Source of the DNA: a virus
Direction: 5' to 3' (one strand)
Virus record (IMG/VR): IMGVR_UViG_3300023118_000008
Coordinates: 92,188 to 144,326 of that record
Length of the DNA: 52,139 nucleotides
A program made the position numbers and the translations under genes. The notes beneath the pieces were generated by a model that made no database searches, was not told the origin of the DNA, and was given only the letters and a program-made list of their open reading frames with translations. Position 1 is the first letter of the stretch; every line of letters begins with the position of its first letter. This document shows, piece after piece, positions 2,709 to 46,879 of the stretch.

Positions 2709-3890
2709 TTATAGTTGTTTTATGCCTTTCGGCGTTATACGTTTATTTCCTGCTTCACTGACCTTGCTAATGCAAGAATTCTCCACAGGCACTTCGGGCA
2801 TTTTTGTCCCTGATATCCCTTCTTTTAAAATATTTTTCGCCGCGTTTACGTCACGGTCTATTTCTAAATTACAAGATTGGCATTTGTAAGTTCTTTCAGA
2901 TAAAAGTAGAATTTCTTTGATATTACCGCAACCTGAACAAGTTTTAGACGAGGGAAACCATCTGTTTATCTTAATTAAATTCCTACCATACCAATTGGCT
3001 TTATATTCCAACATCTGAATCAATAATCCCCAAGATACGTCTGAAATATGTCTTGAAAGCTTCTTTTCTTCCATCATACCTTTTACATTTAATGTTTCAA
3101 CTACTATGACTTGGTTATCGTTCAATAGTAAGTTTGTGATTTGATGATAGTAATGCTCTTTCTGTCTTGTAATTTTTCTGTTTATTTTTGCTATTTTTAT
3201 TTTTAACTTTTTTCTGTTTTTACCTCCTTTTTTAGTTTTTGAATGCTTTCTTTGTAACTTCCTTAATTTATAGTAACTTGATTGCAAATACTTTTTATTT
3301 TCAAAAGTTTCTCCTTCAGATGTGATAATTAAGTCTTTAATTCCTAAGTCTATTCCAATTTTACTTTCTATTTTAGTTAGAATTTTAGTATCCTCAGTTT
3401 CTATTAAAAACGTAGCGAAATAATCTCCACATAAATCTCTTTTGAAAGTACACTGCCTTATTTTATGTGTTTCTAAAAGTTCATTATACTTTTCAGAGGT
3501 CTTAAAATTTATTTTGTTTTTAAAGAATGTTAAGTTATTATTTTTACAGTATATTGCTTGGTAAGCTGTAAATGATTGCAAACCTTTCTTAGACTTAAAT
3601 TTTGGAAATCCTGAGCCTTTAAAGAACTTTTTATATGAAGCTTCAACATTTAAAGCGGCATCTCTTACACACTCTGCTTTACATTTTACAAGCCACTCAG
3701 ACTCTTTTCTTATTTGAAATAATTCTTTTTGCATTGTGAAACCTGAGACATTTACTTTGTAATTGTCCCAAAGATGCTTTTTGTACTCAAGGCACAGATT
3801 GTAGGAAAAACGATATCCCTGGAAATGCTGTTCTAACATTTCTTTTTGCTTTTCTGTTGGATATAGTTTTACTTTTAATCTTTTGTACAT
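2709..3890 (-). CDS. tnpB: TnpB, RNA-guided nuclease of IS200/IS605-IS607 type
   Basis: 393 residues, the usual TnpB length. The N-terminal region matches the TnpB/OrfB helix-turn-helix and wedge region (Y-K-R-L-K-V-K-L-Y-P-T, and K-G-S-G-F-P-K-F-K). The RuvC site is complete: D181 in G-I-D-L-G, E265 in V-V-E-T-L and D345/D347 in I-D-R-D-V-N-A-A. The zinc finger is C318-x2-C321 and C337-x2-C340. TnpB enzymes are DNA nucleases guided by an RNA transcribed from the 3' end of their own gene and the adjacent flank. No TnpA transposase is present, so it is a solitary tnpB acting as a selfish nuclease or a domesticated one. Its ATG is one base after the stop of a tiny RHH gene, so the two are co-transcribed and probably coupled. 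It interrupts the operon leading to polB. Confidence 0.95.
   Translation of the reverse strand: MYKRLKVKLYPTEKQKEMLEQHFQGYRFSYNLCLEYKKHLWDNYKVNVSGFTMQKELFQIRKESEWLVKCKAECVRDAALNVEASYKKFFKGSGFPKFKSKKGLQSFTAYQAIYCKNNNLTFFKNKINFKTSEKYNELLETHKIRQCTFKRDLCGDYFATFLIETEDTKILTKIESKIGIDLGIKDLIITSEGETFENKKYLQSSYYKLRKLQRKHSKTKKGGKNRKKLKIKIAKINRKITRQKEHYYHQITNLLLNDNQVIVVETLNVKGMMEEKKLSRHISDVSWGLLIQMLEYKANWYGRNLIKINRWFPSSKTCSGCGNIKEILLLSERTYKCQSCNLEIDRDVNAAKNILKEGISGTKMPEVPVENSCISKVSEAGNKRITPKGIKQL
2720..2738 (-). ncRNA. Hairpin at tnpB 3' end, part of the presumed guide (omega) RNA
   Basis: The last codons of tnpB encode a short hairpin on the minus strand: ACGCC, a GAAA tetraloop, then GGCAT (2735-2722). 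TnpB omega RNAs are known to overlap the 3' end of the gene and extend past it, with the guide lying beyond the element's right end. The scaffold would therefore cover roughly 2700-2850 and the guide would be flank sequence left of about 2705. The exact right end cannot be fixed by eye. Confidence 0.35.
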
Positions 3891-31100: not shown

Positions 31101-31350
31101 CTAAATTTACAGGCTGGTAGACTCCTATCTGACTAGAGGGCATTGTATTTAACCTCGCATTCAAAGCTTCATAACTGTTATTCTGATTTTGCTGTAAATT
31201 AACTGGTTGGTAAATTCCTTGTTGCGTGGAAGGCATATTGTTTAAGTAGTCGTTCAGCTGTGTGTAGTTGCTATAAGGATTTTGTCCTACTGTCATTCCT
31301 ACTTGTGCCTTTGGCAGGGTAAGGAATTTTTTTAGTTTTTCGTAACTCAT
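28186..31350 (-). CDS. Q/N-rich virion protein, 1054 aa
   Basis: The N-terminal about 100 residues contain two imperfect copies of a roughly 30-residue unit (L-N-x-x-L-N-x-M-P-S-x-Q-x-G-x-Y-Q-P-V-N-L). A central domain (about residues 270-380: Y-M-E-D-G-G-S-V-S-V-G-K-F, E-I-E-K-N-E-F-V-L, H-E-K-G-G-I-K-T-N-L-S-E-G-S-Q-V-L-S-D) matches a module I recall from structural proteins of crAss-like phages. Long Gln/Asn-rich linkers follow. No catalytic motif. The start overlaps the end of the transglycosylase gene (ATGA). Probably a structural or cargo protein made in stoichiometric amounts with it. Confidence 0.75.
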   Translation of the reverse strand: MSYEKLKKFLTLPKAQVGMTVGQNPYSNYTQLNDYLNNMPSTQQGIYQPVNLQQNQNNSYEALNARLNTMPSSQIGVYQPVNLGNQNPQTNQMAVYPQESSIPDYVAQGMGQQWMNQNQPQTLQAPPLTAYDDDSTPQLGAISTNYKIPETTVSGLNTQGGYQFNTAGSGVTRNQALNAETNYNNQQTNQPFRLFNPFGGIDTSTAFSYGAYNLGQGNTGLGILGLSKGLLGTARQGFSAYGLGRNQRDLLNQQNNQSIYNSTPLQEGGVINYMEDGGSVSVGKFLSGKYITDSSNPTTEIEKNEFVLNAKDGQVQKAIGETHEKGGIKTNLSEGSQVLSDHTKIGAKNAKELSKELDIKLKAKNTFADVLDKYSKKIGVEKNIEEGEKLVNQTEETLRMDETDTKQINLDFVQEETARIEAEKEELNTQQQEAFKTIFDKQESQKTSYLQEGGETLAPATEEEAINPNDIIVQVQQAVAQGAPIEEILNNLLSMGYSEDQASQIIQASQSQQQPQMQAGGTAGARIGDFLKSANLLAESKGVQPPNINLTKGNLTKNWTELQNWFVENAPEEVVSYFNEQPITNKGMEILLKDRKADLKGLGIDTNRKPNSFTAEEKKAIQEAIPLDSNFILNQFADGKVDYRFPQATISTLAQAQPQNQAITAPQLPFTSTAQNQNIPAEDLVATTNNSQVQNQQQQRGRNIIPMLPVVEGLTPSAALIPRNDQVNFNRIEPTLRTPEASIAAINNQTNYINEQSFLSNPNLAPFLTANNLGTTQQSVNKAIAETDIYNAEAVNRANQYNANIGDKEQLMNINLGQNYEQRLFKTLDNQEQAWSRYLINEQLQNKQNWMDVNNLNLTNAMTPNYQTDGSNVYFSNPRQYNQVNPELQAQQQMWQNMTPEQRAQYVSNYKQDGGYIYEFEEGAIPMTDQQAREVAQATGFSEEFAREYFRQQGNQNPNLNQSIPQRRPLNLEGDMIADITSGTNRYTPDGGVIVGDYKKVWMNNRPEYFTGRNQPQEGRDFTYLSPQDFTKFQQSQNYKSYKTGYNTPKVASR

Positions 31351-34094
31351 CTTTTTCTTAATTTTTTGATATTTTCGTCAGTAATATACTCCTTTGTTTT
31401 TGGGTCAAAATAAAACCTATCGTATATTTTAAAAGGATTTCCACTTTTGTGCATCAAATAAGATTGTATGTAGGCTTTTTGTTCATCTACTTTTGTGCTT
31501 TTTGAATTTCTTGTCCATTTTTTAGCATAATGGGTTGGTTCAAAATCCCATGAATCTGAAATCGACATGTAAGGTCTACCTACTTCTTCATCCCACGCTA
31601 CTCCTAGTTTATGTCCCCCTAAATCTACTCCCAATGTCTCAGACAAAACGCTTCTTTCCGTCTGAGGAGAATACACTGGTTTTTTATCATTTAAAAAATT
31701 ATTATAATCAACATCCCTAAAGACATCTCTTTCTATTGCTTCTTTAAATATTTCATTATAATCTTCTGTGTTAATTCTATTTTCAAAATCTCCTTTAATA
31801 CTGTAAGATGGTAAAAATGTCAAATAGTCTGATTTAGGACTATATTGAGAATTGGGTAAAATGGCATTTTTAGAAAAATATTGATTAATTAGATTTGGAC
31901 GATTATTATCTAAATTACCTTCATAATTTGATTCTTTTCTACCTAGTACATTATCTGCAAGATTTACCGTTGGGGCTCCTATAGTGGCAGACCCATAATT
32001 ACTTTTTGATACTTTTTCTGCTGCTTTTTTTATAATGTTACCTACTAATGGTGTATTTAAAAGCCAATCGTTCCTGTATAAAAAGTTAACCGCCATATCA
32101 TCCGTTTTTATACCTCTTACTCTTTTTGGATTAAAATAAGCATCTCGTTCCTTCCAGTACTTATAATCTTTTGAATTTTCGTTCAGATAGAAGTTAGAAT
32201 TGTTATTATTACCATTCATACTTTCCAAATTCTGTAAAAAACTACTTACATTAGATACGGGAATTTCAGGTAACCATATTCCAGGTGGAAATTCTGAATG
32301 ATTTATAGAACCCCCTTGTTGCTTTAAAGGTATTTCAACTACTGTTTTTGTGTTATCAAATAAATAGTTTTCATTTGGATACATTATTTTCCTCTCTCCT
32401 GTTTGTTCAGATACTCCTAGAATTTTATGGTCAATTCCCTTCATTGTTATGTTCCCGCTTGGCACTCTTACCATTTGATTTGGATATTGCCACATACCTA
32501 AAGGTGAAGTCGGTATTTCTCCTCCAATTTGATAGTTTGGCTGTATATCTAGGTAATTTCTCAAAGTATTATATCTTTCTTGCGCTTTTGGGTTATTTTG
32601 AGCTTCGGGATTATTATAACGTCTTTCTATATCTTGGTTATATCTATCTTGGTACTCCAAGGCTCTCAAGGCTTTTTCTAAATCTGCTTCGCTGTCCTGT
32701 CTTCCTGAACCGTATCCTTGGGAACCATTCATTCTCTGATTGTATTCTGAAAGTGAAAAACTATTAGGTGTCTGAGCATATTGTATGATTTCTGGGCTTG
32801 CTTTTGGGGTTGCGTTGTTATATACTTGTGTTACACCTTGCTCCTCTACTTTAGAAACTGTTTTTTGTACATCTCTCTGTTGTCTAGTTAAATTTAATTG
32901 AGCATCGTAACCTGCCTTATTTTTTACAAGAACTGGCTGTTCTGGCTTTTTGTAGTTTCCTATAGAAATTTGCGTCTTTATATCGGGACGGCCTTCTATA
33001 GGATTTGCAACAGTACTTGCAAAAGTGGTGCGGGAAATAGGTTTGATTCCTCCAATCTGTCTTCCGTTTTCGTCTTCTTTGATGCTGAGGTCAAAAACTT
33101 TATTGTTATTACTGTTGTTGACATTTCTTATACCGCTCATATAAATAAGAGGATTATTTTGTATCTCTTTCTTTAATGCGTTGTTTTCTTCATATAGATA
33201 TAGACTGTCTCTGTAGGGTTGGTATCTTGGGTCGCTCGGATTATCAACATATAAAGTACCTCCTTGTTGCATTTGCAAGAAACTGTCTATTTCTTCATAA
33301 GTTTGGTTTGGATCAGTATAGTATTGTGCTATGTCTTCTTGTAAGGGTTCTTGGTTTTGCTGTTGAGATGCTTGCTGTTGTGCTATGATTTCTTTTTCCC
33401 TTATTACTTCTTTTTCTACCTGTTTCTCTTCAAGTTTTTTAATGTCTTCATCTTCTTGAGGGGTATAGGATATTCCTCCAAAGTTAGGGAGTTCTTTTGT
33501 AAATACCAAATCTGTTAATCTGTTATTAACCTCTCTGAGATTTTCTACTGTTTCTTGCGGAGTTATCTCTTTTTCGCTATTTGAATACTTAGTTGGTGGG
33601 ATGTTCATCTTCTGTTTGAAATGATTTCCTACATCCGCTAGAGTTTTTGGGGAACCATCTTTATTATAAAGCAAGGCTCTGTTCTGCTTTAAGATAATTG
33701 GAGAAAAGAACTGTTCAGTTGTTGTATTTGGATTTTTGTTTAAACCTTCTATTAATCTTCCTGCCCCCGCCGCACCAAACCCATGAGCTAAATAAAGTTC
33801 ATAATCATCAGGCTGTCTGCCTAGTCTTTTTGAAAGTTGCTTTTTATTATCTTCCGTAAAAAGCTTCATTACTTTTTTAGATTTTTCAGGGTCTAACCTG
33901 TCATCTTGCGAGTATCCCAGATTATATTTCTCATTCAATGCCCTCCAAGTAGAAGGTACAAATTGGAAAAGTCCCGCCGCACCAAAGGGATTTTTGGCGG
34001 TTGTATTTCCTCCACTCTCAGCCGATGCCACTTTACGAGTGTACTGCTCATAAGGGTCATTTTGGTATTGTTTAATTGTTGTAATAGGTGGCAT
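31347..34094 (-). CDS. Virion protein with N-terminal lytic transglycosylase domain, 915 aa
   Basis: The start is set at 34092-34094 (M-P-P-I-T-T), because the longer frame to 34148 overlaps the previous gene by 77 bases. Residues about 12-120 are an SLT lytic transglycosylase: catalytic E26 in A-E-S-G-G-N, then G-A-A-G-L-F-Q-F-V-P-S-T-W, and Y-L-A-H-G-F-G-A-A-G-A. It cleaves the peptidoglycan glycan strand, presumably opening the wall during DNA injection. The remaining 780 residues hold structural motifs including Q-Q-G-G-T-L-Y-V-D-N-P-S-D-P-R-Y and V-P-S-G-N-I-T-M-K-G, which I associate with crAss-like virion proteins. Follows the muzzle-like gene, so it is probably part of the tail or ejected cargo. 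Confidence 0.85.
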   Translation of the reverse strand: MPPITTIKQYQNDPYEQYTRKVASAESGGNTTAKNPFGAAGLFQFVPSTWRALNEKYNLGYSQDDRLDPEKSKKVMKLFTEDNKKQLSKRLGRQPDDYELYLAHGFGAAGAGRLIEGLNKNPNTTTEQFFSPIILKQNRALLYNKDGSPKTLADVGNHFKQKMNIPPTKYSNSEKEITPQETVENLREVNNRLTDLVFTKELPNFGGISYTPQEDEDIKKLEEKQVEKEVIREKEIIAQQQASQQQNQEPLQEDIAQYYTDPNQTYEEIDSFLQMQQGGTLYVDNPSDPRYQPYRDSLYLYEENNALKKEIQNNPLIYMSGIRNVNNSNNNKVFDLSIKEDENGRQIGGIKPISRTTFASTVANPIEGRPDIKTQISIGNYKKPEQPVLVKNKAGYDAQLNLTRQQRDVQKTVSKVEEQGVTQVYNNATPKASPEIIQYAQTPNSFSLSEYNQRMNGSQGYGSGRQDSEADLEKALRALEYQDRYNQDIERRYNNPEAQNNPKAQERYNTLRNYLDIQPNYQIGGEIPTSPLGMWQYPNQMVRVPSGNITMKGIDHKILGVSEQTGERKIMYPNENYLFDNTKTVVEIPLKQQGGSINHSEFPPGIWLPEIPVSNVSSFLQNLESMNGNNNNSNFYLNENSKDYKYWKERDAYFNPKRVRGIKTDDMAVNFLYRNDWLLNTPLVGNIIKKAAEKVSKSNYGSATIGAPTVNLADNVLGRKESNYEGNLDNNRPNLINQYFSKNAILPNSQYSPKSDYLTFLPSYSIKGDFENRINTEDYNEIFKEAIERDVFRDVDYNNFLNDKKPVYSPQTERSVLSETLGVDLGGHKLGVAWDEEVGRPYMSISDSWDFEPTHYAKKWTRNSKSTKVDEQKAYIQSYLMHKSGNPFKIYDRFYFDPKTKEYITDENIKKLRKR

Positions 34095-37000
34095 CGTTTT
34101 GAGTATTTTTGTAATTAATTTTAAATCTTGATTCCAAATCGTTTTCAAGTCTTATTATGAATGAGTCTCCTCTCATTCTTTCCAAAAGCCTTTGGTTTGA
34201 GAAATTGACTGCTCTTCTGTCTATCTCCTTGTAGATATTATTGTCATCCCAAGTCCATTGAGGTATATTTCTATTCTCTTTTTTTACGCGATTATAGAAA
34301 TAGTTTATATACTGCTTCTCGTCTTGGGGAACAAATAAAATATCTTGGGTATTATCTAAATTAGTCTTTGGGTATTTTGCTACATCACCAACTGTTTTTT
34401 GCTCTTTTAGGTTAAGGTTTCCTGTGTTATTAGTATTATTGTAAAGAACGGTTTTATTAAACCCTTTGTTAGCCCATTGTGCATAAGACCAGTTATCTTG
34501 GTATCTCAAAGCTTCTGAGTTTATACTGAAATTGTCAAAAATTTTGCTTGTGTTTTTATTGGCATAAACTGTCTCAACCACAAAAGGTTTTAACTCTCCT
34601 TGAAAAACTTGAAAAGAACTGTTCTCTAAAGTATGTGACCATAACGTTGGCTGAGGTGTATTAAATCCTGTCTGAAAGAAATCTTGGTGAGAATTGTAAT
34701 AGTTTGGGACTGATGTAAAATAACTGTTCCACCCCTTTCTCTCAAATTTAAAACTCACTGTCCAAGACCTGTCTTCAAAATAAGTTACGTCTGTTACATC
34801 TATAGGTTGTAAAACATCTTCAAATGTAGGCTCTTCTGTAAATACGCAAACGCAAACTCCCAATTCCAAATCTTCTTCACAACTTGAATCGCAAGACTCT
34901 GGATCGATACTTTCTACACAATTAAGTTCGGCAGTAATACTATCGACTATATCTTGGGCATCCTGAAATTCAGCTTCATAAGTTGCATAACCATAAAGCC
35001 CAGTTCCTTCGGATGATAGGGGATAATTTGTTTCAGGTATTACACTTCTGCCTCCATAGGCGTTTAAAACACTGATTCTTTCCGCTTCTGTGCCTAAAGC
35101 TACTACAGTTATCTTGATTCCGTTGTCTTTCATGATAGCTCCAAGTTCAAGAACTCCTTCATCACTTGCCTGCGTGTCGCATAAATTTTCCAATCCTCCT
35201 GTCTGAGTTCCGTCTGTTATTAGGACAACTTTTTTAAGAGCCAAAGGTCTGCTGTTTAAGCCTGTTACTACGGTATTTCCTTGACATAATCCTGCTGCTA
35301 TATTCGTACTTCCCGTTTCTCTTGGAAAATCAATAGCCTGCTTTATGAAATCCACATTGTTTGATAGATTTCTTCTTATATTTGCATCATTTCCAAACTT
35401 TACAACACCCATTCTTATAGTGTCATCGGCTATCTTATCAGCAAAACTGTCTACTATTGATTTGGCAAAAGCATTCAGCTGAGCCATTTCTACAGTACTG
35501 ACTGAACCAGAGTTGTCTAAAATCAATACAATATCAGAAATACAATTTTCCGATACTTGTTCGCACATCTGATTTTCAGAGTTATAAGTGTACCCCACAG
35601 GACATATTGATACTGTACTTATTCTTTCACATAATCCTGTCTCTTCATTATAGATAAAGTCTTGACCACACGTAGGATTAGGTTCCAGTCCTTCACATTC
35701 TGACAAATTTAAAGCAAATCCTGTCTGAGGGTCGTATCTCATACATTCTTCATACTCTTTTCTAGGAACGGCATCAAGTTTCGTTAAAAACAGCCTTTTG
35801 TTTACCGAATCATATCCTCCCGAAATACCTAATCCTGTAAACGGGTTATCTGTATCTGCGTCTTTAAAGAATCTTTTGATTTTAAAAGGAAGCTGTTTTT
35901 TAAACCATCTTTGCATATTTGACAATTCTCCTGAAAAAGAGTATGCCATATCTTCAATCTTATCGGCATTATTACTTAAAAATATTACCTGCCCTCTTTC
36001 AGAATCTATGTGGACATCTCCAAATTCTGTTTCTATTATATTATAGTGCTGTGTTCCTGTAAAACCAAGGGAACTTTTTACAAATTCTACTGGTTTAGTG
36101 CCAAAAATACCTCCTGTGCCCAATTCTTTGGTTTGAGGCGTAATTCTCTCAGCCAAGTTGTCAATAGTATTGAATACTTGCATTCCTCCTGTAAATCTTG
36201 CAACTCCTTGATTTCTTGTTGACTCTTTCAAACTTTTTAATACCCCTGAATCTGTGTTGAAAGGGTAAGTATTTAAAGGCTTGTAAACTAAATAAGGATC
36301 GTAATAGGTATCATACTCGCTATTGTCCATTTCCGACCAGATGACTTCATTGGTATTTTGGGAAATCTGTTTCCACTTTTCCCTGTCATAACTTGAAGGA
36401 AGATTTACTGTATTTGTATAAATCGTAGGCAGTGAGTATACTCCACTATATAAAATATTCTCAGGCTGAGTTATTGAGACATTTTTTTCTTGCGTGATAT
36501 ATTCCAAATCAGAAGCTACAGGATAAAAATGCGTATTTAATTCTTTTGTGGCATACCTTGTATTAAGATTCATCTCTGATTCCACTAGAAAATCAACTAC
36601 GCTATAGTAAGCCGTGTAAAATTTAGAAGGTCTTATGTAAAACTTATTACCTCCTGGCTTGCAATCAAATTCATAATCTGAGTCAATATCAGGGAATGGT
36701 ATTAAAAGTCCGTCATATTCAGTGTCTGTTTCATAGTCACAATAAAATCTAGTGAATCCTATGTTACTTGCCGTTGAGTACTGATAGGTTGTCTTGTCTG
36801 GCGTGCCAAAAGCCGTTCTTCTGAAAAAAGGTATTTTACGTTTATAGGTAAATCGTGTTATGCTTACATTTCCTCCGAATACGGGCTGACAGCTGTTATC
36901 AAGGCCTAATTTGAATATTTTTCCCGTTGTTAGCCATCTGACAGTATCAATATCCCCATATTGGTCTGGGACATAATTTTTCATTGTGATGTAAGGTGAT

Positions 37001-40000
37001 GCAATCTCTGGGGAATACTCTCTTTTATCACACCCTATAGTACTTGATATTGCACGGCTGGACGTATTTTTTATGCTAGAATTATCAATACTTATGTATG
37101 CCTGTGGGTAATTTAAAAAATTTTCCCCAAGTCCTAAAAAGACTGACTTTTCTCTTTGAAAGTTATTGATGTTGTAAGTTTCTCCTGCTTTTGTATCCAC
37201 AAGTGAAAAATCTCCGTCTTGGAGGTATCTTGAAACAGTCAAAGGCTTGAAATAATTCTGGTCATCGTTATTTATAAGAATACTGTTGTAATTCCCATGA
37301 GAGTATCCATAGTATGCAAAATTATATGAAGCTCCAATGTCCCTGAAAGATTTTATCCAATCATATCTATATTGTCCTATCTTTGTAAAACCACTAACTG
37401 CGTAGGCAACTCCTGAAAGTATCGCTCCTACAAGACCGAAACTTGTACCTACTACAAATCCCGCAACAAAGAACTGTTGTGCCGTTAATTCCGCTATGCT
37501 TATGGCAGTTTCTAACGCTACTTCAGTTATTGCAAGAGTTGTTGCTGTACTTCTTGCCTTACTCCCTAAAATAGTCCATCTAGGGTGGTCTTCAAGTTCT
37601 GTAAAACTGCTTTTTGCCGTCCCCTTTACAAACCCTTGTATTGAAATCTCCGTCCCTAGCTGTGTTTTTGTATGTAGAAGATCAGGTGATATGTAAGTGT
37701 ACTTGTTATTTCTTTCTGAATCATAAGGATGCTGTATACCGCCTGTGGAATTTCTATCGGGCTTATGATATAAATCTCCGCCTAAATCATTATAGGGAAA
37801 ATTAGAATACAAGTACTCCTTTTCATCTTTGTTGTATTTGTACATATCAAAGGCAATGCCATTGGAAATAACGCTCTTGCTGTAAGTATTGTCTCCTCGC
37901 AGAATTTCAAAACCGTAGATATTGTCAGACTCTTTTTGAGTCATAAGGTTGTTTCTAACAGCCACTTTTAGCATGCCTTCAACAACTCTAGTGTCCATAT
38001 ATACGCCTAGTGGATATATATAACTCTCTGTAAAAGCTGGCATATCCTGATTGGCTATGAAAGGCGCGACTCTATTGTCAGGCATTTTTGGATGTCTGAT
38101 TTTTGCACACCTGAAATCTGTAGTACCTTTTAAAGTGTAGTAGTTTTCATCGTCCAAGCCAGAAGCATAGTAGGCCTCAAATTTAGGTCTTAAGTCTGAG
38201 GGTATGTCATTAGGCTCTATCTTCAGCCAAGAGCTGTCATACAAGTCTTTGTTGTCAGGATAAGTTCTTAAGCTCTCCCAATATGAAAACTCTCCTTGCT
38301 GATATGGTATAGGCTCACATTCTAAGTTATCAGGAAGAAAGTAAGTGCATAAAGTAGAATACTTCTCTGATTTATTTAATTGTATAGAAGTCCAAGACAC
38401 TGTTGCTCTTTCATAGGCTATGTCTCTTGTTACTACAGCAAAGCATCCGTCTGGTGGAGCCGTTCTGTACTTTAATACGGGCGTGGCCTCAGGGTCATAC
38501 CCATTCTCTTGAGTATCGTCTTCTGGGACTCCATAGGTAGTATTTACCCAAGGATCTATGGCAACAAACATTTCCCCCGAAGCAAAAGGATTGCTCAGAG
38601 ATATAATGTTATCATTTACTAGGATAATATTATTTTGGGAAGTTCCTGTCAAATCTCCTGTCAAATTATCAACTGTTACAGTCATAGTAACATTTGATTT
38701 TAGGCTTATGATATTATCCGCCGTTTCTATGCTTATGCCTAAAGTAACCAAATCATTACCATTAAGAAGCATAAAATTTTTAACAGTAGTCTCTAAGTCC
38801 GTGTCAAAAACAATAGGGTAGGATTGCGCATTTACAATTACGCTTGCACTTCCCGAAGTTCCTGTTATCTCTAACCTGCTGTCTGTATTTTTATAAGCTT
38901 CTATCTTATATTTTAGACTCTGGCTTCTTATAGGTATTATCTCCCCCCAAAAAGCCTGTACATCTGAACACTTATGAAAAAGGGAAACCCTTACTTTTTG
39001 AGTTGGGTTTGTAGCACTTTCAATAATATCGTCATTGGCTGGCGGATCTTGAGTTCTTGAAACTTCCAAAATGAACTTGCTTCGATTTAGGGTAGTAGCT
39101 TTGAACCACAAGGCTCCTGCTTGAATCTTCTCTGAAAATCCATTTGTTGAAGACAATTCTGTGACTGTAGACTCTTTACTGCCCTCTAGTTCCGCTCTAG
39201 TTTCTGCTCCCCTGTAATTGAAAAAGTATCTTTGCGCGTTATTATTTGTAGGAGAGATGTTTATTATATCTGCTGAAGACGAGCATCCCTCATTTGTAAA
39301 ACTGTACGTTCTTTTTAAAGTGGTCTTTCTGCCTGGGGTCGGATCTAATGGCGGACGCATCATATAAAGATACTCGAAAGTGGTGTCTCTGACATACTCT
39401 CCCGTTGAAGAATTTTCATAGAAGTTGCAAGATGCACTTGGAAAATTTTCATAGCTTTCAGGAAAAGGTGATTCTTCCCTATTCACGAATTCTCCGTTTA
39501 CCCTGTCTATAAATACTTCAAATTCATCCAAAGTCGGAGTCTCACAAACAGTTTCTTCTACCTCTGTTTGATTGCTCCAATTAAGCGGAACATCTTCTAA
39601 AGCTGTAAATACTACACCCTCTGTCGTAAAGCCCACGTTAGAGAAGTCATCCCCTGCTATTAAGTTATAAATTATGTAGTTTTTACCCGCGATTAGGGTG
39701 CCCGAAGTGTAGACTGTTCCGAAAACAGGTACACAATGGGCTTCTGGGTACGGATTTAAAAGGTAGGGTGTTATCTCAGGAATCACTACTCCTGGATTAT
39801 CTTCAATGTAATCTTTTAAATTATCGAAAGAAGTGTTAAGTTCTATTTCTATAGTATTTGCAGGAATCTCATCAACTCCCTCAATCACGCATATTCTAGA
39901 ATTAGGCTGTATTACTTCTGTTCCGCTTGTTGCTATGTTACAGGTCTTTTCTAATTTTGCCGTGTTGATATACTGCCATTTGAAATCTCTTTCGTTGGTA

Positions 40001-41409
40001 TCACAATTTGTAATATCGCCCATAAGAGACGAATATCCCGTTTCAAGATCTTCATTATTAGCAGGTCTGCCCACTATAGGAAAATTGTAACTTTTTCCGC
40101 CATCCTTGTATAGGAATCTTAAAGAAAAAGGCTGTACTTCATCCCTTTGGTACCCTAAATAATCGGCTGATATGACGCCGTCTTTATATAAGTTTTCATT
40201 TGTAATGGAAGTCTGCCATTTCAATAGGGAAGACATCAGATTTACAACAGGCTGTATATTCAGCTCCTCTTTTCTTTTTATTCCGTGTATGTATTTTCTA
40301 GAGCCGATAATAGCCTCTCCTTCTCCCTTTTCAACTTTTGGCTTTCTTATGAATATATCGTTTAATTCTACTTCTTTCTTGGGGCTGATTAATGTATCCC
40401 TGTCAGTATTTGTATAAATCCTGCCCGATGTAGTTGCCAATACAGTGTCATTTGAAGTTGGGAAAATACCTTCCTCATAAGCAAATATATTAGAGTTTAA
40501 AACTCCTCTTTCAACACAGACTACCTTATAGTATCTGTACTGTTTGTCTAAATTTAAAATATTTAATTTTATAGAATAGGAAGTCAGCCCGTCTAGTTCC
40601 GTGGGATCTAAAATTCTATCATTTTCATTGAATATTTTTATCACTCCCGAACTTGAAGAATATTCAGACATTTCTGCCCCATTTGCGTCACAGTAACAGG
40701 CAAAGTACTCATAAGTACCGTTTCTAAGATTTCCTCCTGTATTTCTAGATACCGCATCAATAGATAATGGAGTATGCTCAGGAAATTGAAGCAGTTTTTT
40801 TACATCTATGCAATCCGTAATTATATTATCTCCACATACGACCTCTAATTCATATAAATAAGAAGTGTCCGTAACATTTAAAAATCTCGGAGGGTTTAAG
40901 TTGTCTTCCCAATATAAAGTAGTGCCTGACTGTTCATTTTTTATGACTGGGTTTTTTATTGGATAATTTTGATTGAAATTTAAGCCTGAACCTACTTCCA
41001 GGCAGTTATCGTTTATAAGCTCTCTATAAATGTTTTCGGGTTGCTGTGTTATACTCTCTAGAGGTTCTGAAAGTGTATTTACATTACCACAGCCTACGCA
41101 GTTTTCTATCGGGTCTTGGTTTTCGTGAAAAGTCAAAAAGTCCTCGACATATCCTATCGAAGACTTGAGTGTTTCCTTATTGGTTAAAAAGTAGTATGTT
41201 ACGTTTTTTAGCGCATTCTTTTTAAAACCTATAACCTTGTATCCTTGAGGAAAATTTACATTTAGATAATTTGAGGGCTCGTTATGAGTGACCTGACCAT
41301 TAGTATCGGAGTTTAGTGCAAAAATAAATTCCCCTTCCTGTAGTCTGTCTATGTTATTTTCTCTATTCATACCCTTTAAAGGGATGCTTCCTTCTTCTCT
41401 TTGTTGCAT
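34072..41409 (-). CDS. Giant tail-tip (muzzle/stabilisation-like) protein with VWA domain, 2445 aa
   Basis: The N-terminus, I-P-L-K-G-M-N-R-E-N-N-x-x-x-L-Q-E-G-E-F, matches the start I recall for crAss-like tail stabilisation/muzzle proteins. The body is beta-rich with many Tyr and Asn. A Gly/Ala hydrophobic stretch lies near residues 1290-1340. Residues about 1890-1955 carry Cys-rich repeats (C-P-V-G-Y-T-Y-N-S-E-N-Q-M-C-E). A full VWA domain spans about 1955-2163, with MIDAS D1965-N-S-G-S, a Thr in G-S-T-N-I-A and D2066 in I-T-D-G-T. VWA domains bind ligands through a metal ion, so the domain may contact the host surface or another tail subunit. It closes the tail tip in the related phages. 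Length exceeds the usual family size. Confidence 0.82.
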   Translation of the reverse strand: MQQREEGSIPLKGMNRENNIDRLQEGEFIFALNSDTNGQVTHNEPSNYLNVNFPQGYKVIGFKKNALKNVTYYFLTNKETLKSSIGYVEDFLTFHENQDPIENCVGCGNVNTLSEPLESITQQPENIYRELINDNCLEVGSGLNFNQNYPIKNPVIKNEQSGTTLYWEDNLNPPRFLNVTDTSYLYELEVVCGDNIITDCIDVKKLLQFPEHTPLSIDAVSRNTGGNLRNGTYEYFACYCDANGAEMSEYSSSSGVIKIFNENDRILDPTELDGLTSYSIKLNILNLDKQYRYYKVVCVERGVLNSNIFAYEEGIFPTSNDTVLATTSGRIYTNTDRDTLISPKKEVELNDIFIRKPKVEKGEGEAIIGSRKYIHGIKRKEELNIQPVVNLMSSLLKWQTSITNENLYKDGVISADYLGYQRDEVQPFSLRFLYKDGGKSYNFPIVGRPANNEDLETGYSSLMGDITNCDTNERDFKWQYINTAKLEKTCNIATSGTEVIQPNSRICVIEGVDEIPANTIEIELNTSFDNLKDYIEDNPGVVIPEITPYLLNPYPEAHCVPVFGTVYTSGTLIAGKNYIIYNLIAGDDFSNVGFTTEGVVFTALEDVPLNWSNQTEVEETVCETPTLDEFEVFIDRVNGEFVNREESPFPESYENFPSASCNFYENSSTGEYVRDTTFEYLYMMRPPLDPTPGRKTTLKRTYSFTNEGCSSSADIINISPTNNNAQRYFFNYRGAETRAELEGSKESTVTELSSTNGFSEKIQAGALWFKATTLNRSKFILEVSRTQDPPANDDIIESATNPTQKVRVSLFHKCSDVQAFWGEIIPIRSQSLKYKIEAYKNTDSRLEITGTSGSASVIVNAQSYPIVFDTDLETTVKNFMLLNGNDLVTLGISIETADNIISLKSNVTMTVTVDNLTGDLTGTSQNNIILVNDNIISLSNPFASGEMFVAIDPWVNTTYGVPEDDTQENGYDPEATPVLKYRTAPPDGCFAVVTRDIAYERATVSWTSIQLNKSEKYSTLCTYFLPDNLECEPIPYQQGEFSYWESLRTYPDNKDLYDSSWLKIEPNDIPSDLRPKFEAYYASGLDDENYYTLKGTTDFRCAKIRHPKMPDNRVAPFIANQDMPAFTESYIYPLGVYMDTRVVEGMLKVAVRNNLMTQKESDNIYGFEILRGDNTYSKSVISNGIAFDMYKYNKDEKEYLYSNFPYNDLGGDLYHKPDRNSTGGIQHPYDSERNNKYTYISPDLLHTKTQLGTEISIQGFVKGTAKSSFTELEDHPRWTILGSKARSTATTLAITEVALETAISIAELTAQQFFVAGFVVGTSFGLVGAILSGVAYAVSGFTKIGQYRYDWIKSFRDIGASYNFAYYGYSHGNYNSILINNDDQNYFKPLTVSRYLQDGDFSLVDTKAGETYNINNFQREKSVFLGLGENFLNYPQAYISIDNSSIKNTSSRAISSTIGCDKREYSPEIASPYITMKNYVPDQYGDIDTVRWLTTGKIFKLGLDNSCQPVFGGNVSITRFTYKRKIPFFRRTAFGTPDKTTYQYSTASNIGFTRFYCDYETDTEYDGLLIPFPDIDSDYEFDCKPGGNKFYIRPSKFYTAYYSVVDFLVESEMNLNTRYATKELNTHFYPVASDLEYITQEKNVSITQPENILYSGVYSLPTIYTNTVNLPSSYDREKWKQISQNTNEVIWSEMDNSEYDTYYDPYLVYKPLNTYPFNTDSGVLKSLKESTRNQGVARFTGGMQVFNTIDNLAERITPQTKELGTGGIFGTKPVEFVKSSLGFTGTQHYNIIETEFGDVHIDSERGQVIFLSNNADKIEDMAYSFSGELSNMQRWFKKQLPFKIKRFFKDADTDNPFTGLGISGGYDSVNKRLFLTKLDAVPRKEYEECMRYDPQTGFALNLSECEGLEPNPTCGQDFIYNEETGLCERISTVSICPVGYTYNSENQMCEQVSENCISDIVLILDNSGSVSTVEMAQLNAFAKSIVDSFADKIADDTIRMGVVKFGNDANIRRNLSNNVDFIKQAIDFPRETGSTNIAAGLCQGNTVVTGLNSRPLALKKVVLITDGTQTGGLENLCDTQASDEGVLELGAIMKDNGIKITVVALGTEAERISVLNAYGGRSVIPETNYPLSSEGTGLYGYATYEAEFQDAQDIVDSITAELNCVESIDPESCDSSCEEDLELGVCVCVFTEEPTFEDVLQPIDVTDVTYFEDRSWTVSFKFERKGWNSYFTSVPNYYNSHQDFFQTGFNTPQPTLWSHTLENSSFQVFQGELKPFVVETVYANKNTSKIFDNFSINSEALRYQDNWSYAQWANKGFNKTVLYNNTNNTGNLNLKEQKTVGDVAKYPKTNLDNTQDILFVPQDEKQYINYFYNRVKKENRNIPQWTWDDNNIYKEIDRRAVNFSNQRLLERMRGDSFIIRLENDLESRFKINYKNTQNDATYYNN

Positions 41410-41411
41410 AG

Positions 41412-42278
41412 TTACCTTGGAAATCTAAAATATTTTGCGAAATGCTTTTTGTTATTATCCGAGAATTTTTTATCCCAATTTTTACCCAGACCTTTAAACT
41501 TTGATTCTTTCATTGCCAAGGATTTTAGTCCTGTTGACTCCTGTTTATAAACCGTATACAGCTGTCCTATTCCTTGCGGGTTTAAGTTATTGTTTATAAG
41601 ATACTCTGATAATTCTATTTTTATAAGGTTTTCTATGTAGTCATATATAGCCCCTGTTGAAAAGATAGGGATTACCATGTCTCCGTTCTCATCTGTCTGT
41701 AGGGAGTAGTATTGTATGTAGACCTTGCCTTTGTCAAAATTAGTATTTAATACTGAATTCGATATGCTTGCCTTATAGGGACTATTTACTCTGAGTTTTT
41801 TATTTACACAGTCTGCTGCTAAAGAGTTTGCTTCCACTGTTCCTTCAAGTTCTAAAAAACGGTGTTTGTAATGGGTATGTAAATGGCTGTTTTTGATAGT
41901 TATCTTTTCAGTCACTATCTTGGTATTGCAACTTTTTATGTACTCATTGGTAAGCTCATTCCATCGGGCAGGATTTTCTATTCTCTCTCTGTAAACGTAG
42001 TTGTCTGTAAGGTTTTCTCTATCCCCTGAAACTGTGAATCCTAAAGGCTCTAGAATATATGCCAATTTTAAAGATTTGAAATCTTGAGGCAGTATTGCTC
42101 TTGAATTATCAATATCTAAAAATTCACTTTTTAAATTTTGTACATTGACTCCAAATTTTCTAAGAGCATTGATTACTGTAAACACAATAGAAGATTTATC
42201 TATATCGCCACTCTCTGCCAATATGGGGTATTTTGCCTCTATCTCGGCTATAAGTTCGTTTATTGATATATTGTCCAA
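41412..42278 (-). CDS. Tail ring/tubular-like structural protein, 288 aa
   Basis: N-terminal I-S-I-N-E-L-I-A-E-I-E-A-K-Y-P, then a helical region and a central beta-rich part, resembling the tail-tubular/ring proteins that precede the muzzle gene in crAss-like phages. No enzymatic motif. It ends two bases before the giant tail protein and follows the 158-aa gene. Basic C-terminal tail (K-H-F-A-K-Y-F-R-F-P-R). Role assigned from position and faint N-terminal similarity only. Confidence 0.6.
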   Translation of the reverse strand: MDNISINELIAEIEAKYPILAESGDIDKSSIVFTVINALRKFGVNVQNLKSEFLDIDNSRAILPQDFKSLKLAYILEPLGFTVSGDRENLTDNYVYRERIENPARWNELTNEYIKSCNTKIVTEKITIKNSHLHTHYKHRFLELEGTVEANSLAADCVNKKLRVNSPYKASISNSVLNTNFDKGKVYIQYYSLQTDENGDMVIPIFSTGAIYDYIENLIKIELSEYLINNNLNPQGIGQLYTVYKQESTGLKSLAMKESKFKGLGKNWDKKFSDNNKKHFAKYFRFPR

Positions 42279-42286
42279 TGTCTTGT

Positions 42287-42763
42287 TTAAATTTTAAAAT
42301 ATTTGCTAGGAGATAAAAAGTTCATCTTTCCTTTCAAATACTTGAGTTGTTTGTAAAATTCATCTGCCTTGTCTAATCTTTTCAAATCGGGAATCAAAAC
42401 TTTGTCTGTTAAGTAATGTCCTTCTGTCCTGAACGATATAAGCTCATCACAAAGAGGTATGAAACTCTGCTCGTAATAAAACCTATCTGGCTTTCTTCTT
42501 AATAGGGATATTCTGCGTCCCTTTACTTTATATTTTGGCAAGAACAATAAATATCCCAATTCTTGGAAGTACACTCCTGCATCATATTCTTGTGATAGAA
42601 GGTTCATTGCGTGCATTAATCCTTTAGCTATTTTGACCCATTTTTTATATTCGTCAAAGGGCTTGTGAGTGAATCTCTTGTTCTTCTTAAAATACTCATA
42701 AGACTCTCTTTCTGTAATATCTGTCTCTTTAAAGAATAGAAATTTATGATCCGTTGACTCCAT
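42287..42763 (-). CDS. Tail completion-like protein, 158 aa
   Basis: Helical start (E-S-Y-E-Y-F-K-K-N-K, F-D-E-Y-K-K-W-V-K-I-A-K-G-L), then L-G-Y-L-L-F-L-P-K-Y-K-V-K, a strand pattern seen in small tail/head completion proteins of Bacteroidota phages. Very basic. Overlaps the 218-aa gene by 20 bases. Family assignment is tentative. Confidence 0.55.
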   Translation of the reverse strand: MESTDHKFLFFKETDITERESYEYFKKNKRFTHKPFDEYKKWVKIAKGLMHAMNLLSQEYDAGVYFQELGYLLFLPKYKVKGRRISLLRRKPDRFYYEQSFIPLCDELISFRTEGHYLTDKVLIPDLKRLDKADEFYKQLKYLKGKMNFLSPSKYFKI

Positions 42764-43400
42764 TTGGGTTTTGATCTTCTGGTGTTTGTTTTCTTAAAAG
42801 TATTTTTTGAACTGTTTCGTCCACGACTATTTTTAAAAATCTGTCAGGCACTATAAACTCATAGTCCCACGCGCTTTTGCATTCATCATCGCACCCGCAC
42901 TTTTCTGTCTCCAAAGTTATCAAGTCTAAAGAAAGATTGTATATTTCTTCATCAGGGATATATATATGCATATCGCTTCCTAAATAAATAAAAACTTCTC
43001 CTTTATGCTGGTATTTTCTTTTTTTATCCCGCCTGATTTGATTCTCATATCCGATTGAAAATTCAAAACCTCCATCAATACTTCTTACATTCTTAATGGA
43101 GCTCCCTAATCGGCTAAAAATAGGTTTAGGTAGAGGTTTCTTTGACCTCATTAATGTACCACAGCGTCTTAAATCGACCAAGGGGCATTTTATTCTATCA
43201 CTGGCTTCCAATTCTATACATTCTATTGTAGTGAAAAGAGAAGCTTCCCTATATAAAGTCCGTTCTAAGAGCTTTTGGGCGATTAGGTTCATAGAAGATG
43301 CCCTGCCCATTCTCAGAATGTATCTTCTTGGCGGAACAGCGTCTACATTATTATCTTTTGCCTGATTTATTACCAAGTCTACAAATTCAGCATTCTTCAT
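42744..43400 (-). CDS. Tail ring-like structural protein, 218 aa
   Basis: First gene after the 43.4-kb promoter. The protein has a helical N-terminus with Y-I-L-R-M-G-R-A-S-S-M-N-L-I and several strands. It carries Cys residues in C-G-C-D-D-E-C that could bind a metal, and a C-terminal F-I-V-P-D-R-F-L-K-I-V-V-D-E-T-V. Position before the other tail genes suggests a ring or neck protein; no family is recognised with certainty. The ATG lies only 4 bases after the -7 element, implying a nearly leaderless mRNA. Confidence 0.55.
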   Translation of the reverse strand: MKNAEFVDLVINQAKDNNVDAVPPRRYILRMGRASSMNLIAQKLLERTLYREASLFTTIECIELEASDRIKCPLVDLRRCGTLMRSKKPLPKPIFSRLGSSIKNVRSIDGGFEFSIGYENQIRRDKKRKYQHKGEVFIYLGSDMHIYIPDEEIYNLSLDLITLETEKCGCDDECKSAWDYEFIVPDRFLKIVVDETVQKILLRKQTPEDQNPNGVNGS

Positions 43401-45614: not shown

Positions 45615-46256
45615 TCATAATTCTATCAATATTTTTGCACCTACTGTTTTTTCTGTTGTTGCCGTACCTAGAACAGTCAGTTTCTTAATCCTTATTCCTA
45701 AATTTGCTTCAAAGCTTGAGTTGTTATTTAAATCTAAAGAGTGATTGTAACCGCCTCCCAAAATAAGCCCAAACTTAGGAGCTTCTTTTACAATTGTATT
45801 GGTGATTGTTTTTTCTTGTACTGTTACTTCCCTTTCTTTTATCTTGTAATCTGCTTTTATATCTTTTAATTCACCTTGTACTTTTGTTCGGACTTTAAGT
45901 TCTATGTTATTATCTGAAAAATCTGAAATATTTTCTTTCTCTTGTATTGATTGGATGTATATTATACTTTTTAAACTGTCATTTGCTTTTAAATATTTTT
46001 CGGCGAGTTTTTTATCAAAAGGATGAGTGGAGTATATGAGCCTGTCTTTGTAAATAATTGAATCAGTTCCTTGACTCGGCAACTCTGTGATTGTCTTAGG
46101 AATTAAAGTCCCTATTACTTCTGGAACTCTTATCTTCACATCCTTATAAGTTGTAACAGTAGACGGTTCAGGATTGCAATCTTTAAGTAGGAGGATAATA
46201 AATATTGCCATAATTCCCATAACAATTTCTCTCCAATATGTTTTTAATGCTATCAT
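45615..46256 (-). CDS. Membrane-anchored lysis-region protein with beta-rich C-terminus (spanin-like?)
   Basis: One N-terminal TM helix (about residues 11-25) followed at once by Cys27. A long periplasmic region with coiled-coil character (about 75-150: [16 protein letters not shown]) follows. The C-terminal about 45 residues have alternating hydrophobic strands ([27 protein letters not shown]) that look like outer-membrane strands. Located next to the endolysin (ATGA overlap). One chain reaching from the inner toward the outer membrane would fit a unimolecular spanin. This is inference; a tail-linked role is the alternative. Confidence 0.6.
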
Positions 46257-46879
46257 ATTTTTAATTTTTGTCCTATTTGTATTAAGTCGGAATTTAGAGA
46301 ATTGTCTTTTTTAATTTTCGTGACGGTAGTTCTATTTTTTATGGCAATTTTAGATAATGTATCCCCCGATACTACCGTATATAGATTTTCCTTTGAAGGT
46401 GTTGTATTCTTTACAGGTAAATTTCCTATTTGAAAGTGCATCCCGTCCTTTCTAGCCCACGTTCCTCCCCACTCTAAGCCACAGTCTGTAAAACATCTTA
46501 CAAATTCTTTGGATAGTTTAGGCTCTTTGTTTAGCTGATTTTCAAAAGCATTTATATCAACAGCTACTGCCCAAGAGTGTAAAGATAGTGATGTCAGACC
46601 TCTTTTCTGACGAATTATAAAAACACCATCCCATGTTTTCAACTCTCTTTCTAAACCTCTATCTATGACATTTTGCAGAGATTTTTCTAATAAGGGTCTA
46701 AAATCTTTATTGATGAATATTTTTTTTGGGAACCCTATTGTACCAACTGCTGAAAATCTTACGTGTGAAAAAGCTTTTAGAAAATTTTCTGAAACTACCC
46801 AAATTTCAAAGTATTTATTTTGGGTTTCTATTAAATTAGGGTCTCCGTACTTGCTTAAGCAGTCTTTACTTGTTACCAT
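46253..46879 (-). CDS. Endolysin: M15 peptidase with C-terminal LysM
   Basis: 208 residues. The peptidase domain has the VanY/M15 zinc triad H101-S-W-A-V-A-V-D108-I-N and D-G-M-H148-F. It cleaves peptide cross-links of peptidoglycan, probably as an L-Ala-D-Glu or D-Ala endopeptidase. Residues 166-208 form one LysM domain ([22 protein letters not shown]) for wall binding. No signal peptide, so it needs a holin to reach the wall. Flanked by holin-like and spanin-like genes, forming the lysis cassette. Confidence 0.92.

Follow-up and report, generated by a model that had tools for sequence, protein, structure and literature searches.

A loop of the muzzle propeller in crAss-type phages as a probable dock for exchangeable surface-binding cassettes, here holding a von Willebrand factor type A domain

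The question raised by this locus is what a von Willebrand factor type A (VWA) domain with a complete metal ion-dependent adhesion site (MIDAS) does inside a giant phage tail protein. The stretch of DNA analysed here, referred to as the window, comprises 52,139 nucleotides of the IMG/VR virus record IMGVR_UViG_3300023118_000008 (positions 92,188 to 144,326 of that record), and the gene concerned is an open reading frame (ORF) of 2445 aa with an ATG start on the minus strand at 34072-41409. A sequence-only reading of the window had described the product as a muzzle-like protein with such a domain near its C-terminus, preceded by C-P-x-G-Y-T-Y-N repeats, and had proposed metal-dependent adhesion as an unusual mechanism for a tail tip. 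Our analyses point to a muzzle of the crAss type, and we consider it rather probable that the B-C loop of one blade of its propeller is a dock for exchangeable surface-binding cassettes at the tail tip, occupied in this phage by a VWA domain that would bind a host ligand via the metal of its MIDAS.

The VWA domain spans aa 1957-2137 (34999-35541, on the minus strand, as are all features of this gene). Pfam PF00092 matches aa 1959-2108 (E 9.6e-17), its 62.2 bits lying well above the cut-off of 23.8, and VWA_2 matches with E 2.5e-10, scores that are far beyond chance, and integrin I and VWA chains appear in the Foldseek list. The MIDAS is indeed complete: D1965-N-S-G-S1969 (35503-35517) supplies the D-x-S-x-S motif with D1965, S1967 and S1969, Thr2035 lies in GSTNIAAG (35305-35307), and Asp2066 lies in ITDGT (35212-35214). 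All three motifs, including the GSTN and the aspartate, are kept in the VWA domain of another locus, L108, though its muzzle backbone is only 41% identical to that of the window, and by its motifs the window VWA is probably metal-dependent. No second VWA domain was found in the window's own record, and a PDB sequence search with the cassette returned just two weak matches (E 0.007-0.008). Cysteine-rich modules lie on both sides of the domain. The N-side region (aa 1900-1956, 35542-35712), recognized by motif and by weak CBM_14/cEGF matches, contains CGQDFIYN..C and CPVGYTYN..C; the repeats described earlier are therefore real modules, but their exact form, C-P-V-G-Y-T-Y-N-x5-C, is present in one of the two copies only (aa 1936-1949), the copy ahead of it being degenerate (aa 1914-1927). 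The C-side region (aa 2138-2200, 34810-34998) has its Cys-rich module at aa 2164-2188 and corresponds to the region with which the second chain begins in relatives with split genes.

The host protein of this domain could be placed by several routes. The profile phrog_37948 (virion structural protein) matches the ORF with 1070.6 bits, the homologue in csAssE-Sib is annotated as 'Muzzle protein', and relatives occur in 11 of 50,697 annotated phage records, namely in the Cellulophaga phi17:2/phi4:1 group, csAssE-Sib, a Leptolyngbya phage, and two gut clones. An hhalign comparison with the gp44 family of phicrAss001, represented by a profile of seven muzzles of which two were translated with table 15, aligned 1071 columns through the ring-joining, propeller, IG and crass regions (probability 99.96, E 3.8e-39). 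The muzzle genes of the Suoliviridae loci L176 and L178 give open frames only with a code in which TAG encodes Gln: table 11 leaves 9 and 18 in-frame stops, table 15 none. A phmmer search with gp44 found no match among the collected ORFs, and neither did a PDB profile search with the muzzle alignment; the link to gp44 thus comes from the profile-profile alignment and from a fold search. For the latter, a structure was predicted for aa 1246-2445, and Foldseek ranked the phicrAss001 muzzle first (7qol_P with E 1.5e-10, 7qok with 6.4e-10), followed by integrin I and VWA domains. In VIA, the phicrAss001 muzzle reached a Z of 17.3 with a root-mean-square deviation (rmsd) of 32.9 over 542 residues, which means that the domains match and their mutual placement does not; the podovirus nozzle proteins came next, with GP4 (8jov), Pa223 (9nwi) and VP1 (8zkk) aligning to the C-terminal 790 aa at Z 10.4-11.1. 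In the literature, the nozzles of SU10 and T7 belong to this class as well. These comparisons identify the window protein as a gp44-like, crAss-type muzzle, as the sequence-only reading had supposed. The muzzle is described, in the part of the source available, as a hexameric gatekeeper at the tail tip that likely contacts the cell (Bayfield et al., 2023; PMC10172136).

With the protein placed, the cassette can be delimited. The front part, aa 1-1885 (35755-41409), aligns with gp44 residues 4-1199 and holds the ring-joining N part, the propeller, and the IG and crass-type domains, ending with strand B of the dock-bearing blade, and the back part, aa 2201-2445 (34075-34809), aligns with gp44 residues 1200-1366 and continues with strands C-D of this blade, the next blade, and the ring-joining C part. 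The intervening cassette of about 315 aa (aa ~1886-2200, 34810-35754) falls between gp44 residues 1199 and 1200, where ..FYDKNNNDVYFTYKD meets HCLCYSELINQFTSFMSY.. in gp44, which is homologous over almost its full length but has no insert at this point. In csAssE-Sib, clone MT837925 and phage Lbo-JY46, both flanks of the VWA cassette are conserved and lie only 16-26 aa apart, and the comparison with other crAss-like muzzles, which had been suggested at the outset, accordingly identifies the cassette as an insertion into a conserved protein. The earlier wording 'near the C-terminus' is loose, as the protein continues beyond the cassette for 245 aa, which belong to the propeller and the ring-joining region.

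We read the site as the strand B-C loop of one nozzle-type beta-propeller blade, in which strands A and B precede the cassette and strands C and D follow it; by our own count, this is blade 6 of 7. DSSP assignments of the predicted structure agree with a loop: the cassette is preceded by strands at aa 1861-1867 and 1872-1878 and followed by one at 2216-2221. Loops of the B-C and D-A kinds lie on the same face of a beta-propeller. The IG1 domain of gp44 is reported to sit between blades 2 and 3, beneath the propeller (PMC10172136, as far as its text was available), and since the two kinds of loop share a face, the cassettes would leave on the same distal side as IG1; by this analogy, they plausibly exit the propeller distally. 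The same source, in its available part, holds insertions within the crass and IG2 regions responsible for length variation of muzzles, and its text raised the idea of an insertion into the distal crass domain, which the profile alignment to gp44 ruled out.

How widespread such insertions are was determined with muzzle genes gathered from annotated phages, IMG/VR and GTDB genomes (one scan gave the best 80 of 576), in which the flanks were located with hidden Markov models built from the alignment; 159 ORFs with the first flank, the window included, formed 114 clusters at 95% backbone identity. The insert at the site is shorter than 120 aa in 77 clusters and longer in 37, and the largest inserts reach 713 aa. 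Pfam scans of the inserts or tails of 29 loci besides the window (10, 10, and 10 proteins from 9 loci) revealed very different contents: LRR_8 (1.2e-8) with a PKD-like domain in L010, DUF11 (4e-25) and DUF285 (2.5e-86) in L015, a DUF5122 propeller (4.8e-48) in L107, Fib_succ_major (6.5e-34) in L105, and PKD_5 or PKD-like domains in L114, L127, L138, L141, L123 and L142, together with matches below the cut-off to Lcl_C in L013 and to PA14 in L116 (8.7e-4) and a weak BACON match in L112; the scan gave no informative match for the inserts of L001, L023, L109 and L134. One loop thus hosts several adhesin types, and VWA is one of them. A relaxed form of the Cys motif is present in 24 of the 37 long inserts and in none of the 77 short ones (shuffling expectation 0.55/37), and because the C-P-x-G-Y-x-Y-N modules recur with different kinds of cassette, they seem to form a stalk shared by the cassettes and not a part of the VWA domain.

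The PKD_5 domains and the weak BACON match are domain kinds shared with modular adhesins of the Ig-like/PKD/BACON type, and Ig-like adhesins of gut phages bind epithelium according to the available part of PMC13370021. The cassette could be an adhesin for surfaces other than the bacterial receptor, such as mucus or polysaccharide particles, on which phages gather in the vicinity of their hosts, as has been reported for such modular adhesins of gut crAss-like phages. We regard this as unlikely, if worth keeping in view: the cassette sits on the tail-tip gate and not among capsid decorations, and where we could observe its exchange between close relatives (see below), it changed along with genes of the tail-fibre type, as host-recognition parts do.

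VWA or VWA-like domains were found in 13 of the 114 clusters, so that the domain is neither universal in the family nor, as the sequence-only reading had implied, a single oddity: the insertion is real, and VWA is one of several adhesin types found in the same loop. Nine of the 13 are the window, L008, L012, L099, L108, L127, L133, L138 and L140, and the remaining four, L001, L088, L109 and L112, have a different motif. The Pfam cut-off for VWA was passed by three of the 13, the window, L108 (64.5 bits) and L138 (27.5 bits), and L140 fell slightly under it (23.6 vs 23.8). A PF00092 search of nine related records gave a match in four and a score above the cut-off in one; as related records mostly stay below this cut-off, the VWA domains that we call type b were assigned by mutual identity and not by Pfam score, with L008, L012, L099 and L133 accepted on the strength of 46-65% identity among themselves or with L140. 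The VWA call for L127 comes from its motif alone, with no VWA match in Pfam. The L001-type domain, which is the one in phi4:1 gp42, likewise has no Pfam match; its fold was predicted from four sequences with a mean pLDDT of 75.6 and a pTM of 0.78, and its VIA list consists mainly of VWA and integrin I-domain chains, the best being the VWF A1 region of 8d3c at Z 8.5, and Foldseek was weak, with best rows of E 0.03-0.06 that included non-VWA proteins. A profile comparison between the VWA group of the window and the phi4:1-type group gave E 0.18, the two being joined by predicted fold only.

The most direct indication that these cassettes are exchangeable comes from two IMG/VR contigs, L008 and L009, whose muzzles are identical at 1860 of 1868 residues within aa 1-1885 (99.6%) and at 224 of 246 residues in the C-terminal part, and whose VWA domains share only 123 of 203 residues, so that about 40% of the residues differ. 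The synonymous divergence (dS) is 0.045-0.057 ahead of the cassette, 1.2-1.5 in the Cys-rich and VWA parts, and 0.33 behind it. Such a rise in dS is not expected from selection that acts on the protein only, and it indicates replacement of the segment by recombination. In a 60-kb comparison of the two phages (53,731 of 60,000 bases aligned), few islands of divergence stand out; the cassette is one of them, and the others fall in an intein-bearing terminase, a GDSL/tail-fibre-type gene pair, an endolysin and a methyltransferase. The terminase ORF at L179:4745-8401, with an intein (PF14890, LAGLIDADG_3), is one of the divergent islands between two near-identical phages. Cassette and backbone also disagree across types: the window shares 84% of its backbone and 26% of its VWA domain with L008, and 44% of its VWA domain with L108 at the backbone identity given above. 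In a tree built from the backbones of 71 among the 114 clusters, the presence of VWA required 10 changes, type-b VWA (5 rows) 5 changes, and all labels together 26 changes; the labels are our own, with PA14 of L023 and L129 assigned by eye and L112 counted by its first ORF. Such localized exchange fits a role in surface recognition. Diversification of the protein by a diversity-generating retroelement was rejected for this record, as RVT_1 (PF00078) occurs in 0 of 1 records, which may be incomplete. A search for the donor of the cassette covered 149 genomes from the family of the Lacinutrix metagenome-assembled genome that holds L089, of which 3 gave weak VWA matches (E 1.7e-5 to 4.1e-4, 26-28% identity), and it gave none in the two bacterial genomes holding L089 and L090; no donor emerged from these genomes.

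The variety of cassettes and their exchange also bear on a different role for the VWA domain, namely in virion assembly or maturation, in analogy to the VWA partners of MoxR-type AAA+ chaperones. Pairs of MoxR and VWA proteins have been discussed for jumbo phages and archaeal viruses (available parts of PMC7824862 and PMC7911831). However, AAA_3 (PF07726) and AAA_5 (PF07728) were found in 0 of 1 records, the 144-kb record of the window, which may be incomplete; a site that takes LRR, DUF285, propeller or PKD cassettes, or almost nothing, would hardly be allowed by assembly; and the rapid exchange is confined to the cassette. We therefore hold an assembly function to be very improbable.

A further feature of the dock is that it can coincide with a break in the gene. 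In 19 of the 114 clusters, the muzzle ORF stops just behind the cassette and the remainder forms a separate ORF, which mostly begins in the C-side Cys-rich module. At the 17 junctions inspected, the gap measures 9-41 bases in 14 and 1.1-2.6 kb in three, the latter accommodating ORFs of 635 aa in L013 (L013:15248-17155), 736 aa in L134 (L134:3212-5422) and 363 aa in L112 (L112:15992-17083). Those of L013 and L134 each start with a Cys-rich module of their own and look like additional adhesin chains. The same split recurs on five contigs of the L010 cluster and is therefore no sequencing slip, and a split directly behind the cassette would ease cassette exchange. By our count, a second break affects 35 of the 114 clusters, with L074 also among the 19, and leaves a separate ORF of about 290 aa that retains no more of the second flank than its later half. 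It lies at aa ~2250 of the window and gp44 residues ~1234-1237, which is the same loop in the next blade, and in L066 it is preceded by a DUF5122 propeller. Poly-Thr linkers are at times seen at this second break, near the end of the muzzle ORF, as in L045 and L066 among others.

Between the split muzzle halves of L102 lies an ORF of 194 aa (L102:15759-16343) that resembles a homing endonuclease by eye, and this putative enzyme might drive cassette exchange. The extra ORF in the dock, and the fact that 77 of the sampled clusters lack a long insert, would also suit a hitch-hiking insert that is tolerated, does little for the phage and owes its spread to homing endonucleases or recombination. 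Against this, folds, Cys modules and reading frames are maintained, the MIDAS is common to L108 and the window, and the cassette types differ from one another without being decayed, and we consider a mere hitch-hiker to be decidedly unlikely.

Several observations weigh against a surface-binding dock with a metal-dependent VWA domain, our preferred reading. Clusters without a long insert are the majority of the sample, so that the cassette is dispensable for the muzzle; among relatives, the site is seen to tolerate a short loop of 17-40 aa. The MIDAS is degenerate in some of the VWA-like cassettes, which have DTTSM (phi4:1, phi17:2, L014 and L088) or DVTSM (L109) instead of D-x-S-x-S; the loss of the canonical MIDAS in the VWA-fold domain of phi4:1 and phi17:2 means that metal dependence cannot be general. 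In the nozzle of SU10, blades 4-6 of the propeller line the channel (PMC9509320, available part), and a loop of blade 6 is therefore not automatically external, although we infer that an internal place for inserts of up to 713 aa, six per hexamer, is unlikely. Finally, the structural model of the window protein is of moderate quality, with a mean pLDDT of 62.6, a pTM of 0.39, and values mostly below 60 in the VWA domain.

Among the closest known systems are gp42 of the cultured Cellulophaga phage phi4:1 and gp43 of the likewise cultured phi17:2 (Lightbulbvirus), which have the same muzzle, the same dock and, by prediction, a VWA-fold cassette. They differ from the window in that their VWA domain is about 26% identical to it, carries DTTSM in place of a canonical MIDAS, and has no Pfam match. 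The record of phi4:1 notes that mass spectrometry found gp42 in virions. In phicrAss001, a VWA-like protein, gp52 (L171:20503-21270), is annotated outside the muzzle gene. The available part of the SU10 study (PMC9509320) mentions no VWA cassette in the nozzle, and in the open-licence PMC literature we found no paper on a VWA domain in a phage muzzle or nozzle. Propeller-loop adhesin cassettes or a muzzle VWA are likewise undescribed in the accessible portions of PMC10172136, PMC10136315, PMC11054128, PMC12386605, PMC13370021, PMC7886860, PMC9509320, PMC7824862, PMC8651126, PMC7911831 and PMC10892097.

Outside phages, the arrangement resembles integrin alpha chains with an alpha-I domain, in which a MIDAS-bearing VWA domain resides in a loop of a seven-bladed beta-propeller; in the window, the profile alignment puts the insert in a propeller B-C loop, and seven blades are our own reading. 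Integrin headpieces occur in the structure lists, and the integrin alpha chain 9t5w_A aligned over propeller and I domain with a middling Z of 7.3 at an rmsd of 20.6, which may mean little. The integrin alpha-I domain is inserted between blades 2 and 3. In the window, by contrast, the propeller is of the nozzle type and homologous to gp44, and the insert lies, as we read it, inside one blade, C-terminal to the crass region, and the likeness is therefore one of working principle and not of kinship; we take it as convergence. Carried further, the muzzle could be the phage counterpart of an integrin head, in which the VWA domain binds a metal-bridged host ligand and the blade transmits the resulting conformational shift to the gate loop. 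Recognition and tail opening would then be one mechanical event, and cassette exchange would re-target the trigger without the gate being rebuilt. This is an improbable extension of the dock reading.

The genomic surroundings are those of a crAss-type tail block, as indicated by the neighbouring gene for tail ring protein 2 upstream of the muzzle gene (42744-43400, minus strand; PF25702 CrAss_Ring_2, E 3.9e-23), a context shared with phicrAss001 gp44 (PDB 7QOK/7QOL). A phrog_34036 match lies beside the muzzle gene at 41412-42278, and a gene with a transglycosylase domain (31347-34148) comes after it. Elsewhere in the window, a small gene at 46253-46879 combines M15 peptidase and LysM domains and probably encodes an endolysin, and a gene at 2709-3890 is similar to IS605 OrfB/TnpB, with a match to a Cas12f1-like TNB domain; in csAssE-Sib, a TnpB-family gene stands immediately ahead of the muzzle gene. 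The muzzle homologues of L090 and L091 are on contigs of 229 kb and 574 kb from Spirosoma isolates, which would suggest crAss-type phages that are integrated or co-assembled there.

We thus propose a dock in which the VWA domain, its MIDAS complete, follows a short Cys-rich stalk and precedes a further Cys-rich module that closes the cassette. Six such cassettes per virion most likely stand out from the muzzle at the tail tip, and they are predicted to bind a cell-surface ligand of the host, presumably a member of the Bacteroidota, through a divalent metal held by the MIDAS. The gate would thereby have a short-range recognition step of its own, alongside the tail fibres. By recombination in the conserved flanks, phages swap the whole cassette for other VWA types or unrelated adhesin folds, which may affect host range. 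For recognition of the cell by crAss-type phages once the capsule is reached, and for opening of the muzzle gate, tail fibres are the usual suspects. A dock for adhesin-fold cassettes on the gate protein points to a second recognition element, and the set of cassettes suggests interchangeable keys for surface recognition. The insert in the B-C loop would then be a sequence marker for host-range prediction in uncultured relatives, and, if our reading is true, the arrangement of a VWA domain in a propeller would have been reached independently of integrins.

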